In this document: piece by piece, positions 2,488 to 23,372 of the stretch
Layout: every line of letters starts with the position of its first letter
Numbering within the stretch: position 1 is the stretch's first letter
Virus record (IMG/VR): IMGVR_UViG_3300048784_000209
Location: 1-23,477 of that record
DNA length: 23,477 nucleotides
Reading direction: 5' to 3' (one strand)
Origin: a virus
Position numbers and translations under genes: made by a program
Notes under the pieces: model-generated
Database searches by the model: none
Told to the model about the DNA's origin: nothing
Seen by the model: only the letters and a program-made list of their open reading frames with translations

Positions 2488-2949
2488 ATGAAATCATGCA
2501 CAAAATGCAAAGAAATTAAGCCTTTAACTGAATTTTATAACCATGTAAAGCACGGTCCAAGACCAGAATGTAAGGCTTGCACCAAGCTGCGCAGCGCCAA
2601 TATTTGGAAAGATAAGAAGGAAGAACTGACGCTGCGCAATAGAAACTGGTTGGACAACAACAAAGAGAGACGAAAAAAATACACAAAAGTTCAAAATCTA
2701 AAACGAAAATATGGACTTACATTGGAGCAATATGAAGCAATGTTGTTAGCCCAGCGTGGCAAGTGCCCCATATGTAACAAAGAACTAGATGCTTGTGCTC
2801 AAAAAGACGTTGATCACTGCCATAACACAGGAAAAATTAGAGACATACTTTGTAGCAATTGCAATAAGGGCTTAGGTTGTTTTGACGACAATCCTGAATG
2901 CATGATAGCAGCCGCAGAGTATGTCAAAAGACATCAAGGGGTAATATGA
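2488..2949 (+). CDS. HNH homing endonuclease, endonuclease VII type
   Basis: 153 residues: N-terminal zinc site C4-C7/C28-C31, basic linker, then YGLTLEQYEAML (75-86), C93-C96, DVDHCH (107-112), C122-C125 and GLGCFDDNPE. This matches the endonuclease VII/HNH family and is a relative, not a copy, of the gene at 390-956. ATG 2488 follows GGAG by six bases; an in-frame ATG at 2476 would lie inside the hairpin stem without a site of its own. The stop shares ATGA with the macro-domain gene. AT-rich coding sequence compared with core genes. Confidence 0.85.
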   Translation: MKSCTKCKEIKPLTEFYNHVKHGPRPECKACTKLRSANIWKDKKEELTLRNRNWLDNNKERRKKYTKVQNLKRKYGLTLEQYEAMLLAQRGKCPICNKELDACAQKDVDHCHNTGKIRDILCSNCNKGLGCFDDNPECMIAAAEYVKRHQGVI

Positions 2950-3389
2950 TCGTTTATAAACAGGGAGATGTTCTTGAGTCCGACGAAAAGGTTATTGCTC
3001 ACGGATGTAATTGCAGCGGCGGATTTGGGTCTGGGTTTGCAAAGTCCGTGGCTGAAAGGTACCCGACCATACGGGAAGCTTACCTTCACAGGCATAATAC
3101 AAGGGGTTGGAAGCTTGGGGACGTACAGAATATTAACGTGGGTGACGGATCAGGGCGCAACATTGTCAATTGTGCTACACAGCAATGCTATGGTAGGCCC
3201 GACCAAGGCCCTTATGTTTCTTATCCTGCTATTAGAGAAGTTATTAAAAAGCTAGCGAAGTCTTACCCAGGCGGTTTCGCGATGCCTAAGATTGGCGCAG
3301 GTTTGGCCGGCGGCAACTGGGACATCATCTCTGAAATTATAAACGAAGAGACTGGAACCATAGAAGTTCGCGTCTATGTCTTGGGATGA
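2946..3389 (+). CDS. macro-domain protein (ADP-ribose binding/hydrolysis)
   Basis: 147 residues that make up a single macro domain. The N-terminal strand-loop IAHGCNCSGGFGSGFAKSV (about 17-35) has the Asn and Gly-rich loop that hold ADP-ribose in this fold. The C-terminal loop KIGAGLAGGNWDII contacts the phosphates. The length is typical for stand-alone members of the Poa1/OARD1 type. Known members remove ADP-ribose from protein, DNA thymine or ADP-ribose-1''-phosphate; the substrate here cannot be told. ATG 2946 overlaps the HNH stop and follows AAGGGG. A NADAR gene lies 2.3 kb downstream, so two ADP-ribose-handling families occur together. Confidence 0.85.
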   Translation: MIVYKQGDVLESDEKVIAHGCNCSGGFGSGFAKSVAERYPTIREAYLHRHNTRGWKLGDVQNINVGDGSGRNIVNCATQQCYGRPDQGPYVSYPAIREVIKKLAKSYPGGFAMPKIGAGLAGGNWDIISEIINEETGTIEVRVYVLG

Positions 3390-5551: not shown

Positions 5552-5665
5552 ATGTTTGAATATTTAGCAGGTCTTGTGACGATGATGCTCATGTTGCTGC
5601 CAATAAGCTTCTTTATATTGGCTCCGTTACAGCGTTACATAAAAAGGAGAACCCGTGACCGTTAG
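5552..5665 (+). CDS. single-span membrane peptide, 37 aa
   Basis: ATG 5552 directly follows the TAA of the previous gene (GGAAGG at 5541-5546 is the ribosome site). The peptide starts MFEYLAGLV, has one hydrophobic span of about 22 residues (TMMLMLLPISFFILAPL) and a basic tail (RYIKRRTRDR), so an N-out/C-in inner-membrane topology is likely. It overlaps the NADAR gene by 11 bases. No family recognised. Confidence 0.55.
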   Translation: MFEYLAGLVTMMLMLLPISFFILAPLQRYIKRRTRDR

Positions 5666-6113
5666 ACAAAAGATTTTCTTCTGGTCTGAAGACGACAAGG
5701 AACAGTACGGTTGCTTCTCCAACTTCTATCCTGGTCCATACGAGATCGATGGAAAGGAGTGGCCAACTACTGAGCACTACTTCGCCGCCATGAAGACGAT
5801 GGACGAGAGCCAACGTGAAGACATTCGCAAGGCACTGACGCCTTTGGACGCCAAAGGAATGGGTCGCATAGTTACTCTTCGCCCTGACTGGAACGACGTG
5901 AAGTATGACGTCATGATCGATGCGCTCACGGCCAAGTTCGGTAACAACATGAAGTTAAAAGAGATTTTGGTTTCAACCGGCGACGCACTTATATACGAAG
6001 ACTCTCCTTACGACAAGGTTTGGGGTACGGGCGAGCGAGGCGGTGTCGGCAAGGGTCAGAATCTATTAGGAAAAGCGTTGATGCAAGTTCGCGCTGCACT
6101 TTCCGAGACGTGA
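5655..6113 (+). CDS. NADAR-domain protein (YbiA-like), 152 aa
   Basis: GTG 5655 after AAAAGGAG. The N-terminal block FFWSEDDKEQYGCFSNFYPG, then WPTTEHYFAAMKT, and the C-terminal block EDSPYDKVWGTG with GQNLLGKALMQVR are the signatures of the NADAR/YbiA family; the whole protein is one domain of normal length. Family knowledge: members act as N-glycosidases; YbiA/RibX act on riboflavin-pathway intermediates, and other members remove ADP-ribose from guanine bases. Placement near a macro-domain gene favours an ADP-ribose role here (inference). Its TGA stop is the TG of an extended -10 promoter. Confidence 0.88.
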   Translation: MTVRQKIFFWSEDDKEQYGCFSNFYPGPYEIDGKEWPTTEHYFAAMKTMDESQREDIRKALTPLDAKGMGRIVTLRPDWNDVKYDVMIDALTAKFGNNMKLKEILVSTGDALIYEDSPYDKVWGTGERGGVGKGQNLLGKALMQVRAALSET

Positions 6114-8962: not shown

Positions 8963-8997
8963 AAGCTCCGTAGGCGTAACTGCTTGCGGAGCTTTTT
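8963..8997 (+). terminator. rho-independent terminator
   Basis: AAGCTCCG (8963-8970) pairs with CGGAGCTT (8987-8994), extended by AGGC/GCTT inside, and runs into TTTTT (8993-8997). It ends plus-strand transcription after the lipoprotein gene and directly faces the end of the minus-strand island. Confidence 0.85.
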
Positions 8998-9504
8998 CTA
9001 TTTGTTGGCCTTGATTGTGTTTGCCGCGCTGGTTAATAACTGTAAATTCCAAGGCACATGAAGTCCACTTACATTTTCACCCTGTAGAGGACAAATGTGA
9101 TCAACGTCTATAGGTTCATTTAAGATAGATTCGACCCATTTAGCAACAACGTAATAACGCTTTATCTGTTGAAGCTGCTCTTCTATGAGCCATTTAGGCG
9201 TAGCATTAAGCTTAGCAGCTCTGCGTTTTGCCTGTATCGCATTCTTAATTGGTCGGTTGTTTTTTGTCCATAGGGCACTCTTTACTTTAAGTTCTACTTT
9301 GTGAGCTTCATACCAAACCTTATTGCGCTCTTTTTCTTTTGTGTCATGTCTGGCCTTGTACTTCCTTGAGTATTGATTAGTCCAGTCTTTACATGGCACC
9401 GAACGACATTTTTTAGAACAATATTTAGCTTTTTGAGCGTGACTCTTATCTACGAACGAAGTGGCACATATTAAGCAAACTTTATTTGACCAATAATGCT
9501 TCAT
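8998..9504 (-). CDS. HNH homing endonuclease, 168 aa
   Basis: N-terminal zinc site C10-C13/C29-C34, basic linker, ATPKWL, and the HNH core DVDHICPLQGENVSGLHVPW with NLQLLT and a final Asn-Lys. The same core is seen in the genes at 20310 and 22422, so the three form one subfamily distinct from the endonuclease VII type. The start (9504) lies within the last 23 bases of the ClpP-like gene with only a weak ribosome site, suggesting coupling. AT-rich. Confidence 0.85.
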   Translation of the reverse strand: MKHYWSNKVCLICATSFVDKSHAQKAKYCSKKCRSVPCKDWTNQYSRKYKARHDTKEKERNKVWYEAHKVELKVKSALWTKNNRPIKNAIQAKRRAAKLNATPKWLIEEQLQQIKRYYVVAKWVESILNEPIDVDHICPLQGENVSGLHVPWNLQLLTSAANTIKANK

Positions 9505-12059: not shown

Positions 12060-13199
12060 ATGAAGCCGTCTCATATCTTGACCATTCTGGATACTGCCTA
12101 TGCTGCTCGTATGGCAGGCGAAGTCATGAATCCCCTTTTCACTGGCGAAGCAGGTCTCGGTAAGTCCCAGATTTGTCAGCAATGGGTGAAAGATCAGCGC
12201 AAGCGCAATCCGAAGTTCGGCTTCGTCGATCTGCGCATCGCGTACATGGAAGCTCCCGACCTCATCGGCTTCCCCGAAACTGCCAAGGATAACAATGGCG
12301 TGGTTCGTACCTGCCATCGTCTCCCTGAGTTCTGGCCAACCGAAGGCGAAGGCTTGATCCTTCTGGAAGAGCCGAACCGCGGCACGACTGGCGTCATGAA
12401 CTGCCTCATGCAGGTTCTCACCGATCGCAAGATTCACAACTACACTCTGCCCGAAGGTTGGCTCCTCGCGGGTTGCATCAACCCAGACTCTTCTGAGTAC
12501 GATGTCAACACCATGGATGCCGCACTCAAAGATCGCTTCGAAGAGCATGAGATCGAGTATGATCCCTTGACGTTCATGGAATTCATGGACAAGAGCAACT
12601 GGAACGAGAGTATCCAGCGCTTCATCGGCGACGCCATCTGGATGTACAAGACTTCCAAAGAGCTGGGTCAGGGTGGGAAGTACATCTCGCCTCGTACCTG
12701 GTCCAAGGTCCAGGCTTCTGAGCGTGCTGGCGTTCGCAAGAATCGTCAGCTCCATCGCATGATGGTGACGTCCATCCTCGGCAAGGACATCGGAAACGAG
12801 TTCCACAAGTACTGTTACGATCAGGCTCCAGTCACGGCGACTGAGCTGCTCAAGGATCGCGCGGTCGCGCTGTCCAAGCTGCGCGAGCACTCACACCCCG
12901 ACACGTACAAGGGCGATATGCTTGCTGCCACGGTGGAGAGCATCACCAAGGCGTACGGCGGAGCCAAGAAGGACTGCAAGTCTGACCAAATCGACGAGGA
13001 CATGATGGCCGAAGTGGCCAAGATCATCCCTGCCGACTACGCCGTCAATCTCATCAAGGCTTGCGGCTTCAAGCAGACCAAGGGTCGCATGAGCGACTTC
13101 TTCAACGACTTCTGCAAGCGTCACCCTGAGCTCATCGACGTGCTCAAGGCGAATCTCAAGTTGTCTCGGGCCGTGGATGCGGGTAAAGCGGGTAAGTAG
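12060..13199 (+). CDS. MoxR-type AAA+ ATPase, 379 aa
   Basis: ATG 12060 after GGAGG. Walker A GEAGLGKS (29-36), a MoxR-like APDLIGFPE segment (65-73), Walker B LILLEE (99-104), sensor-1 region AGCINPD (Asn141) and arginine finger near R159 (AALKDRF). The C-terminal half is helical and unrelated to other domains I know. MoxR ATPases work as chaperones with a VWA-domain partner, and such a protein is encoded directly downstream. A strong terminator separates the two, so each has its own expression, perhaps from the shared CTGAAACTAT elements. Confidence 0.9.
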   Translation: MKPSHILTILDTAYAARMAGEVMNPLFTGEAGLGKSQICQQWVKDQRKRNPKFGFVDLRIAYMEAPDLIGFPETAKDNNGVVRTCHRLPEFWPTEGEGLILLEEPNRGTTGVMNCLMQVLTDRKIHNYTLPEGWLLAGCINPDSSEYDVNTMDAALKDRFEEHEIEYDPLTFMEFMDKSNWNESIQRFIGDAIWMYKTSKELGQGGKYISPRTWSKVQASERAGVRKNRQLHRMMVTSILGKDIGNEFHKYCYDQAPVTATELLKDRAVALSKLREHSHPDTYKGDMLAATVESITKAYGGAKKDCKSDQIDEDMMAEVAKIIPADYAVNLIKACGFKQTKGRMSDFFNDFCKRHPELIDVLKANLKLSRAVDAGKAGK

Positions 13200-19402: not shown

Positions 19403-20320
19403 ATGAAAACACTCTCTAACGGCCAGTGGGTTGACAACGTTCCTGAAACCTCAATAGAGTCATTCGCTAAATCCTACGTAGATAAGCATGTCTCAGAGGA
19501 ACTTCAGAAGAGCTCTGAGACAATCTTGTTTCGCCGCATAGAAGATAAGTTCGTACTGCCTAAAGCACTCAGGAAGCCATTCCTGGATCTTCTAGATAAG
19601 AACCTAAAAACTGACTACCCTGATGGTGCTACGAAGTACAACTTTATGAAGAGTACCTACTTTGACTCTGCTAACTTTGACATGCTTAAGCACCACGCTT
19701 CTAAGGCGACATCCAGGTTCAAAATAAGAACTAGAGAATATGCCCCAAATGGAAAGCTTCACAAGTCTGACTTTACCTACATGGAAGTTAAGGCCAAGAG
19801 TGGGAATGTAACAGATAAGTTCAGGTTGCGCGTTCCTAAGGAAGATGTGGAAACCTTCAAAAAGGGTGCACCCATTACTGCTACTGTTAAGCTAATTAAA
19901 GCCAATCCAAGCATCGGCGTCACAGAGCTAGTGAAGCGCATAGCAGACATTAACCAGTCCATGGAGTTGTTTCATTTGAGGCCATCTTGTGAGACGTCGT
20001 ACAACAGAAAAGCTTACACGGATGGGGCAGTTAATGATACCGGACTCAGGATAACAGTTGACGAAGATGTCAACTATAAGATACTGGACATAATGCCTAG
20101 TAGCGTTAGCAGTGACTTGAACAAGGCCGGTGAAGAACATAATGCCTTAGCGAACATGGTTAGCGGCTTTAATCCTAAGGACCACGTGATAGTAGAGGTG
20201 AAGCACCAAGGTGTCGGCTATCCAGACTGGCTTACTAAATTCTTGAACGACAACAAGCTTCAAAAAACTAACCTGTCGAAGTACTGTTGGTCTCTCACTA
20301 AGCACGCACTCAAGAAGTAA
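19403..20320 (+). CDS. VTC-domain protein (triphosphate-tunnel polyphosphate polymerase type), 305 aa
   Basis: The VTC fold signatures are clear: [10 protein letters not shown] (43-52, ExK), [12 protein letters not shown] (84-95), [15 protein letters not shown] (104-118), [10 protein letters not shown] (125-134), DKFRLRV (138-144). Then come [22 protein letters not shown] and [20 protein letters not shown]. The alternating Lys/Arg and Glu residues line the tunnel that binds triphosphates and polyphosphate in known members (yeast Vtc4, bacterial CYTH/VTC proteins). No SPX or membrane domain is attached. A phage copy could make or handle polyphosphate or another triphosphate; this is inference. 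Leaderless start is likely. The HNH gene on the other strand overlaps its end by 11 bases. Confidence 0.85.
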
Positions 20321-21762: not shown

Positions 21763-21782
21763 TTTGCTTAGGTATTGTGCCC

Positions 21783-21791
21783 TGGTATAAT
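21783..21791 (+). promoter_or_regulatory. extended -10 promoter of the stable-RNA block
   Basis: TGGTATAAT followed by six bases (CAAATC) and ATG at 21798. The only evident promoter upstream of the tRNA-Asn, tRNA-Phe and RNase P RNA, so it probably drives all three. Confidence 0.6.
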
Positions 21792-21935: not shown

Positions 21936-22030
21936 TGGGAGATAACGCTCAGGGTGAAACGTGACTGGCTGTTAACCAGATCTTGGGGATAAAACCCCTT
22001 AGGCAGGTTCGATCCCTGCTCTCCCAGCCA
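21936..22030 (+). tRNA. tRNA-Asn (GTT) with class-II-like variable arm
   Basis: Acceptor TGGGAGA/TCTCCCA (21936-21942/22020-22026), G73 and CCA. The anticodon loop CTGTTAA (GTT at 21971-21973) on CTGG/CCAG is identical to the E. coli tRNA-Asn loop, and U1-A72 with G73 also fits Asn identity. The T arm GCAGG-TTCGATC-CCTGC is canonical. Between anticodon and T arms is a long segment with hairpin GGGG-ATAAAA-CCCC, instead of the usual five bases, so the RNA is 95 nt long. Asn tRNAs normally lack this arm. The D stem is only 3 bp (CGC/GTG). Confidence 0.88.
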
Positions 22031-22035
22031 AATAT

Positions 22036-22112
22036 GCCCACTAAGCTAACCTAGTGGAAGCGTCTCCCTGAAGAGGAGAAGATCGTTGGGGCGGAACCAA
22101 CAGTGGGCACCA
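22036..22112 (+). tRNA. tRNA-Phe (GAA) with non-standard T loop
   Basis: Acceptor GCCCACT/AGTGGGC (22036-22042/22102-22108), A73, CCA. D arm GCT/AGC, anticodon stem TCTCC/GGAGA with loop CTGAAGA (GAA at 22070-22072), 5-base variable loop, T stem GTTGG/CCAAC. The T loop is GGCGGAA, not TTCRANY, so the usual D-loop/T-loop contact and T54/psi55 modification could not form normally. Everything else is sound. It starts five bases after tRNA-Asn and ends 17 bases before the RNase P RNA. Confidence 0.85.
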
Positions 22113-22129: not shown

Positions 22130-22413
22130 TTGAGACAGACGGGGCATCGCAAGGGAAACCTTGAGGAACGTCGGAGCGGCAAGAGCAGCGTAGTGGTTAA
22201 CGACCATCCACCGCGAGGTGAGGATTAGAGCTACAGGAACGTAACCGTTTAAGTGCGGGTTGAAACGAGCAATCTCTACGTGACGCAACCTAAAATAGGT
22301 CAACCATACTACTGCTCGTAGTGTTGACGGGTATAGGGCTAGAGGTCAGCAGTAATACTGATCCCAGATGAATGATGTCACAAATACAGAACTCCGCGTA
22401 TAGTCTGTCTCAA
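22130..22413 (+). ncRNA. rnpB: RNase P RNA (phage-encoded)
   Basis: RNase P RNA is the catalytic RNA that removes 5' leaders from pre-tRNA. Here P1 is an 11-bp perfect helix (22130-22140/22403-22413) closing the molecule. P2 is GGCATC/GATGTC (22143-22148/22374-22379). P3 is CAAGG-GAAA-CCTTG (22150-22163). P4 is ACG/CGT plus CGGAG/CTCCG (22168-22176/22392-22399) with U22171 bulged exactly as universal U69. Conserved blocks GAGGAACGTCGGAGC (22163-22177), AGATGAATGAT (22366-22376) and ACAGAAC (22386-22392) match bacterial rnpB. P5/P7 is GAGCAG/CTGCTC (22183-22188/22312-22317). A GCGA-capped hairpin at 22209-22220 resembles P9, and a P18-like hairpin is at 22344-22363. About 284 nt, shorter than usual host RNAs (330-420). 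The protein partner is not in the window, so a host subunit may serve. Confidence 0.92.
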
Positions 22414-22421
22414 TACAGTTT

Positions 22422-22952
22422 ATGAAGATCTGCTCTATAGAAAGATGCGGTAAGAAGCACAAAAGTAAAGGGTTTTGTAATAACCACTACATCAAGTGGC
22501 GCTATACAAACGACGAAGAATATCGTCAAGGTAGAATCTTAAAATCCGCAAAAAGAAAAGCTGAATGGTTGAAAGAAAATCCGGCAAACAGGGCAAGACA
22601 TAACGCCACCAATCTAAACTCCATGAAAAAGCGTTATGACTCTAATCCTGATTATAAGAAAAACGAACAAGAAAGAACAAAGAATTTTCGTCGAGAGAAA
22701 TACAGTAGAGACGAAAAATTTCGGCGCAAAGAAAAAACCGCCGCTACCATGAGAAAGAGACACATTAAAGTTGCCACTCCTAAGTGGGCAAATCTCGATG
22801 CGATAAAGAATTTTTATGATGAAACTCCTGAAGGTTTTCACGTAGACCACATCATTCCGTTACGCGGAGAAAATGTAAGTGGACTTCATGTAGAGTACAA
22901 CCTTCAATATTTGAGCGCCGAGGAAAACCTGATAAAGGGTAACAAAGTTTAA
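22422..22952 (+). CDS. HNH homing endonuclease, 176 aa
   Basis: ATG 22422 lies eight bases after the P1 helix of the RNase P RNA, with no clear ribosome site. N-terminal zinc-type segment C4, C9, C19 and H22 (CSIERCGKKHKSKGFCNNHY), basic linker, ATPKWAN, HNH core [20 protein letters not shown] and NLQYLSAEENLIKGNK. Closest in the window to 20310 and 8998. AT-rich insertion between the RNase P RNA and the next gene, which suggests that it homes into the stable-RNA block. Confidence 0.83.
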   Translation: MKICSIERCGKKHKSKGFCNNHYIKWRYTNDEEYRQGRILKSAKRKAEWLKENPANRARHNATNLNSMKKRYDSNPDYKKNEQERTKNFRREKYSRDEKFRRKEKTAATMRKRHIKVATPKWANLDAIKNFYDETPEGFHVDHIIPLRGENVSGLHVEYNLQYLSAEENLIKGNKV

Positions 22953-23281: not shown

Positions 23282-23372
23282 GCAACGGTAGTTCAAATGG
23301 CTGAAGACGCCTGACTGTAAATCAGGTCCCTTAGGGTTAACACTGTAGGTTCGAATCCTACCCGTTGCACCA
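23282..23372 (+). tRNA. tRNA-Tyr (GTA)
   Basis: Acceptor GCAACGG/CCGTTGC, A73 and CCA. Anticodon stem CCTGA/TCAGG with loop CTGTAAA (GTA at 23317-23319), a class II variable arm with TCCC/GGGT pairing, and a fully canonical T arm GTAGG-TTCGAAT-CCTAC. It follows tRNA-Ser by five bases and precedes the next gene's ribosome site. Confidence 0.93.

Follow-up and report, generated by a model that had tools for sequence, protein, structure and literature searches.

A class A RNase P RNA gene within the tRNA array of a myovirus lineage

Introduction

RNase P RNA (P RNA) is the universal cellular ribozyme for tRNA trimming. It is regarded as a cellular gene, borrowed by phages from the host. The GGU motif in L15, a contact for the 3' CCA of tRNA, is common in class A P RNAs and does not define them. 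Archaeal type T P RNA has largely lost the specificity domain. One-strand tRNA arrays are common in large phages. Known phage arrays rely on host RNase P, as with the T4 pre-tRNAs (PMC11143913), and in the megaphages of PMC8172020 only tRNAs and tmRNA were reported among Rfam RNAs. No description of a phage P RNA was found in the open-access literature searched; preprints and most subscription papers lie outside that coverage. Such an RNA is likely to be novel, with priority not established.

The gene considered here lies in a linear IMG/VR contig of 23,477 bases (IMGVR_UViG_3300048784_000209), the whole of which is called the window. All window features described below are on the plus (+) strand.

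Results

The P RNA gene and its structure

Positions 22130-22413 (+) of the window are a complete class A bacterial RNase P RNA gene, the identity given in a preliminary description of this DNA. An Rfam covariance search, which that description had set in advance as a possible refutation, matched RF00010 at 22131-22416 with 188.2 bits and an E value of 1e-59, far over the gathering cut-off of 100 bits and across the full model (positions 1-367). These values exclude a chance match. Both ends of the gene are set by P1, an 11-bp helix (22130-22140 with 22403-22413) that closes the molecule, and the predicted length of about 284 nt was correct. P2 (22143-22147 with 22375-22379) and the GAAA-capped P3 (22150-22154 with 22159-22163) were also located where they had been claimed. 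The P4 5' strand, ACG-U-CGGAG (22168-22176), forms eight of eight pairs with the 3' strand CUCCGCGU (22392-22399), and its bulged U, at 22171, stands in the canonical place. The J3/4 sequence GAGGAA adjoins P4 and its bulged U. The class A pseudoknot P6 is present both in the sequence and in the Rfam alignment, as GAGC (22183-22186) pairing with GCUC in L16 (22314-22317); in L077 this pairing is GAGU with ACUC. Conserved region V, AGAUGAAUGA ... ACAGAAC, spans 22366-22392. It comprises the two strings noted earlier, AGATGAATGA at 22366-22375 and ACAGAAC at 22386-22392, and contains the pattern AGAUGAAUG ... ACAGAA. P15, P16 and P18 were found as well.

The specificity domain is shrunken, not lost. 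P13/P14 are missing (1 nt versus 44 in the RF00010 model) and P12 is short, which bears out the reduced specificity region first described; P7-P12 are nonetheless kept. The L15 GGU motif was found neither in the window P RNA nor in its five relatives. This motif is also missing in cyanobacteria and many CPR bacteria (PMC8172020), so its loss does not disqualify the RNA from class A. Judged from its sequence, the window P RNA is class A by every testable defining feature.

Covariation and phylogeny

Folding of the window P RNA as a single sequence gave only a z of -2.1, and a comparative fold was therefore needed. Five sequences (the window, G048, G073, G053 and G070) were aligned with MAFFT and folded with RNAalifold. 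The de novo consensus fold recovered P1, P3, P4, P5, P7, P8, P9, P10-12, P15, P16 and P18, and thereby reproduced the helices of RNase P. Compensatory change, with at least one sequence altered on both sides and pairing kept, was seen in 47 of 71 pairs, P4 included. These changes indicate that the RNase P structure of the window family is kept by compensatory change.

The variation extends into P4. Among 30 Bacteroidota P RNAs the first five of the eight P4 pairs are invariant (AAG-U-CC with GGCUU), the sixth is G-U for G-C in one, and only the last two pairs vary further. The second, third, fifth and sixth pairs of the window family change jointly with their partners, and both the pairing and the bulged U are kept. 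A search of 84,980 bacterial and archaeal genomes for the window P4 3' strand in its AGATRAATG context gave no exact match.

The tree, whose cellular P RNAs were all from Bacteroidota, joins the window to G048 and G073 (90/98 support); a weaker grouping links it to the P RNAs from other large viral contigs. The best identity of the window P RNA is 55% to a Bacteroidota P RNA versus 71% to its phage kin. In the P RNA of G055 (L076, 1501-1908), the P12 region carries a large insertion that brings the length to 408 nt, and P4 contains a single G-G mismatch.

Phage origin of the DNA

Genes in the window encode a ClpP-like head protease, homing endonucleases, a Band 7 protein, a MoxR ATPase, and NADAR and VTC domains. 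The MoxR-type ATPase (12060-13199, +; phrog_1297) served as the anchor in the search for relatives and led to 25 related viral contigs, the closest copy (91% identical) being on G048, a contig of 176,837 bp. The VTC gene, tried as an anchor, recovered no relatives. The window is colinear with G048, the identities being 87% for the AAA protein, 83% for NADAR, 80% for Band 7, 91% for the ATPase, 87% for DUF2201 and 61% for VTC, and its surroundings are viral as first reported. G048 has genes for the terminase large subunit (TerL), portal, major head protein, tail sheath, DNA polymerase, UvsX and ribonucleotide reductase. By these structural and replication genes, the window lineage is a myovirus of about 175-177 kb. 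The Macro-like, NADAR and VTC-domain proteins of the window (2898-3389, 5655-6113 and 19403-20320) are possibly an ADP-ribose/polyphosphate-related set.

Seven related viral contigs (G048, G051, G052, G053, G055, G070 and G073) have a P RNA, with RF00010 scores of 149.5-179.6 bits. Four of the seven are about 147-177 kb in size; G051-G053 have equal scores and identical sequence where read. A junction with host DNA had been named as grounds for rejecting the phage location, and none was seen. Since the P RNA occurs in seven relatives, in the same place where mapped, and G048 carries phage genes, the comparison indicates that the window P RNA is phage DNA and that the contig has no host junction there.

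One phage contig of the window lineage, C305 (LNEN01000305.1), was binned into a Cytophagales metagenome genome, G076. That bin holds two P RNA genes, its own and the phage copy, and P RNA counts from metagenome bins can thus mislead.

The tRNA array and flanking genes

Two tRNA genes precede the P RNA. The tRNA-Asn (GTT; 21936-22030, by ARAGORN and fold) has an unusually long, base-paired variable arm, unlike a normal class I tRNA-Asn; relatives have an Asn tRNA of 76-77 nt at this position. The tRNA-Phe (22036-22112; anticodon GAA, from the sequence) encodes CCA, matches RF00005 with 42.9 bits at 22036-22109, and is separated from the P RNA by 17 nt. An ORF for a free-standing HNH-type homing endonuclease (22422-22952; PHROG 26577/1035) starts 8 nt past the P RNA, and the next tRNA gene downstream on the same strand is tRNA-Tyr (GTA; 23282-23372, by Rfam match and ARAGORN). 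The order in the window is Asn, Phe, P RNA, HNH gene, Tyr. A candidate promoter for this tRNA/P RNA unit lies at 21764-21791: TTGCTT-16-TATAAT, its -10 box preceded by TG. It was found by eye and is weak, below the threshold of the consensus scan. Near the P RNA gene, sites resembling promoters or terminators are no commoner than in shuffled sequence.

This arrangement recurs in the relatives. Asn and Phe are also upstream of the P RNA in L074, L076 and L137, and the mapped relatives (G048, G052, G053, G055, G070 and G073) have tRNA-Asn, in some tRNA-Phe, the P RNA, and then tRNA-Ser, tRNA-Leu or tRNA-Tyr. The P RNA of G048 lies in one array of 24 tRNA genes, with CCA encoded in 24 of 24. Rfam counts of tRNAs per genome, from few genomes of which some are fragments, are 32, 6, 26, 21 and 32 in P RNA carriers and 4, 1, 16 and 12 in non-carriers. 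No P RNA match was obtained in these several non-carriers, which are related phages with tRNAs, and the P RNA is thus dispensable within the lineage.

HNH ORFs lie against P RNA ends in three contigs. They are downstream in the window and in L079 (1821-2342), where an ORF 63% identical to that of the window has the same place, and upstream in L075 (1806-2057). The difference in side points to homing into the P RNA gene or its vicinity.

Among 45 viral P RNAs, 29 have a tRNA within 1.5 kb, versus 2 of 31 Bacteroidota P RNAs. Of the 157 tRNAs at most 1.5 kb from the viral genes, 155 are on the strand of the P RNA. Fifteen of the 45 are flush with a tRNA (≤10 nt), six of them on both sides, and several of the other viral contigs have their next tRNA at most about 6 nt past the P RNA 3' end.

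P RNAs in other viral contigs

A strict 3'-end pattern matches 47 other viral stretches. RF00010 matches at E ≤ 0.001 were obtained in 42 of the 47 records, and 19 are over the cut-off. A terminase family match was found in 16 of 23 contigs tested, a test that bacteria with prophages pass too. The proposition that all 47 are phage was rejected, as L018, L015, L004/L046 and L045 have no nearby tRNA and group with Bacteroidota in the tree. These may be cellular or host-derived; the L004 and L046 contigs nonetheless hold a terminase. The few matches that look cellular were left out of the case for phage P RNAs. Microcystis phage MaAM05 (MW495066.1, L089) gave a strong match and was rejected as a carrier, being cellular by its genes. 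Deposited as a complete phage genome, it has the genes fabI, engB and glyS together with a P RNA of normal bacterial type, and it looks like bacterial contamination.

All positive evidence comes from metagenomic contigs. A similarity search of named phages and plasmids with the window P RNA gave no P RNA match. RF00010 with strict filters gave none in the named phages XbC2, Kaldavass, G, Atu_ph07, XacN1, RaK2, phiKZ, MTATph1 and phiWae14, nor in uncultured Lak-C1 and two huge-phage assemblies.

Miniature P RNAs of 158-195 nt occur in contigs of up to 328 kb (L020, L047 at 1545-1710, L044 and L027). Most or all of the specificity domain is missing from them, and they are flush with tRNA genes. 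In L020 the P RNA (8982-9139) is 158 nt long and scores 73.6 bits (E 1.4e-20), with tRNA-Ala directly after it; the specificity domain between the P5 strands is missing, and P1-P4, a P15-like element and the region V elements are kept. The 195-nt P RNA of L027 (2115-2309) lies among 23 tRNAs, and a similar stretch is present in the 735-kb huge phage LR756501 (72% over 136 nt). These viral miniatures are possibly the smallest bacterial-type P RNAs. The 385-kb contig L036 (2784-3119 and 5070-5488), from a large phage, combines a P RNA with a GOLLD RNA (212 bits) and some 20 tRNAs, all on one strand and within 10 kb.

Discussion

Protein partner and proposed function

RnpA (PF00825) was not found in 32 P RNA-bearing viral contigs, six of them of the window's family; ten of the control bacteria match. 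The protein subunit must then be the host's, unless the RNA acts by itself. The P RNA is probably a working phage ribozyme, with host RnpA as its partner and the phage tRNA transcript as its substrate. It would probably be transcribed with the phage tRNA array, fold into the class A core, and assemble with host RnpA, none having been detected in the phage. The hybrid enzyme would then trim the 5' leaders of phage pre-tRNAs in infection, a time when host supply may fall short or be degraded, and would so benefit the phage. The tRNA precursors of T4 are RNase P substrates (PMC11143913). Because the P RNA lies in a tRNA array and phage pre-tRNAs are substrates of RNase P, a ribozyme supplied with its substrates is the simplest reading. 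Two findings count against a working ribozyme: the L15 GGU is missing although the phage tRNA genes encode CCA, and several tRNA-bearing related phages have no P RNA match.

Where a tRNA follows flush, cleavage at its 5' end would also free the ribozyme and make the P RNA 3' end. The spacing suggests such self-release from the transcript in those contigs; in the window itself the HNH gene occupies the downstream place.

Four other explanations were weighed. Host contamination or a chimeric contig is vanishingly improbable: some of the 47 pattern matches may be cellular, and MaAM05 carries fabI, engB and glyS beside its P RNA, but gene by gene the window corresponds to a myovirus of complete size, its P4 variant is in no bacterial genome searched, and the P RNA of the seven related contigs, in the same place where mapped, already refutes this explanation through synteny. 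The region might instead be mobilised by the adjoining HNH genes with little benefit to the phage. HNH ORFs do hug the P RNA on either side, the P RNA is patchy in the family, and L074 groups in the tree with the P RNA of a 318-kb contig. Conservation through compensatory change is strong, however, and the place within the tRNA array is constant, which makes passenger status very improbable; L074 and L137 have tRNAs close on either side of the P RNA, and HNH genes occur at many places in the window.

The remaining two concern what the RNA does. It could titrate host RnpA or pre-tRNAs, and so inhibit or redirect host RNase P while catalysing little itself. An RNA without a detected RnpA, an altered sequence in the active-site helix P4 and the missing CCA-binding GGU would all fit, but the whole catalytic core is under compensatory selection, beyond what a decoy needs, and the gene lies within phage tRNA arrays, whose tRNAs depend on RNase P in their turn. 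Such a role seems quite unlikely. An enzyme with changed substrate choice, acting for example on tightly spaced phage tRNAs or on non-tRNA phage RNAs and so not simply duplicating the host's activity, is suggested by the loss of P13/P14 and GGU, the changed P4 and the flush tRNA spacing in several phages. Cellular P RNAs also lose P13/P14 and GGU (PMC8172020), however, and such specialisation is considered unlikely.

The position of the window P RNA among tRNA genes, and the like position in its relatives, suggest that some phages supply the catalytic RNA themselves and borrow a host protein to make their own tRNAs. A broader and rather doubtful proposal is that RNase P ribozymes evolve in phages of several lineages, the smallest being about 158 nt long and devoid of a specificity domain. 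Such ribozymes would cut themselves free of tRNA arrays and either capture host RnpA or dispense with it, for a separate line of tRNA maturation and a changed output of host RNase P.

A compensatorily kept ribozyme encoded by phages inside tRNA arrays would extend the phage takeover of translation to tRNA maturation. The set also offers natural P4 variants near the active site, of a kind not seen in the cellular genomes searched, as well as naturally miniature P RNAs.

Comparison with known systems

The window P RNA shares with bacterial class A P RNA (rnpB, M1 RNA; RF00010) the helices P1-P12 and P15-P18, the P6 pseudoknot, conserved regions I, IV and V, and the bulged U of P4. Unlike rnpB, it is phage-encoded, has no detected RnpA, lacks P13/P14 and the L15 GGU, lies in a tRNA array, and has a P4 sequence that differs from the nearly invariant bacterial one. 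The loss of P13/P14 and GGU is shared with CPR bacterial P RNAs (PMC8172020), and the loss of the specificity domain in phage L020 and L047 resembles type T. Those RNAs differ in being the sole P RNA of a cell, whereas the 158-166 nt phage copies keep bacterial catalytic-domain motifs. L036 resembles phage tRNA arrays with a GOLLD RNA, but has a P RNA in addition.
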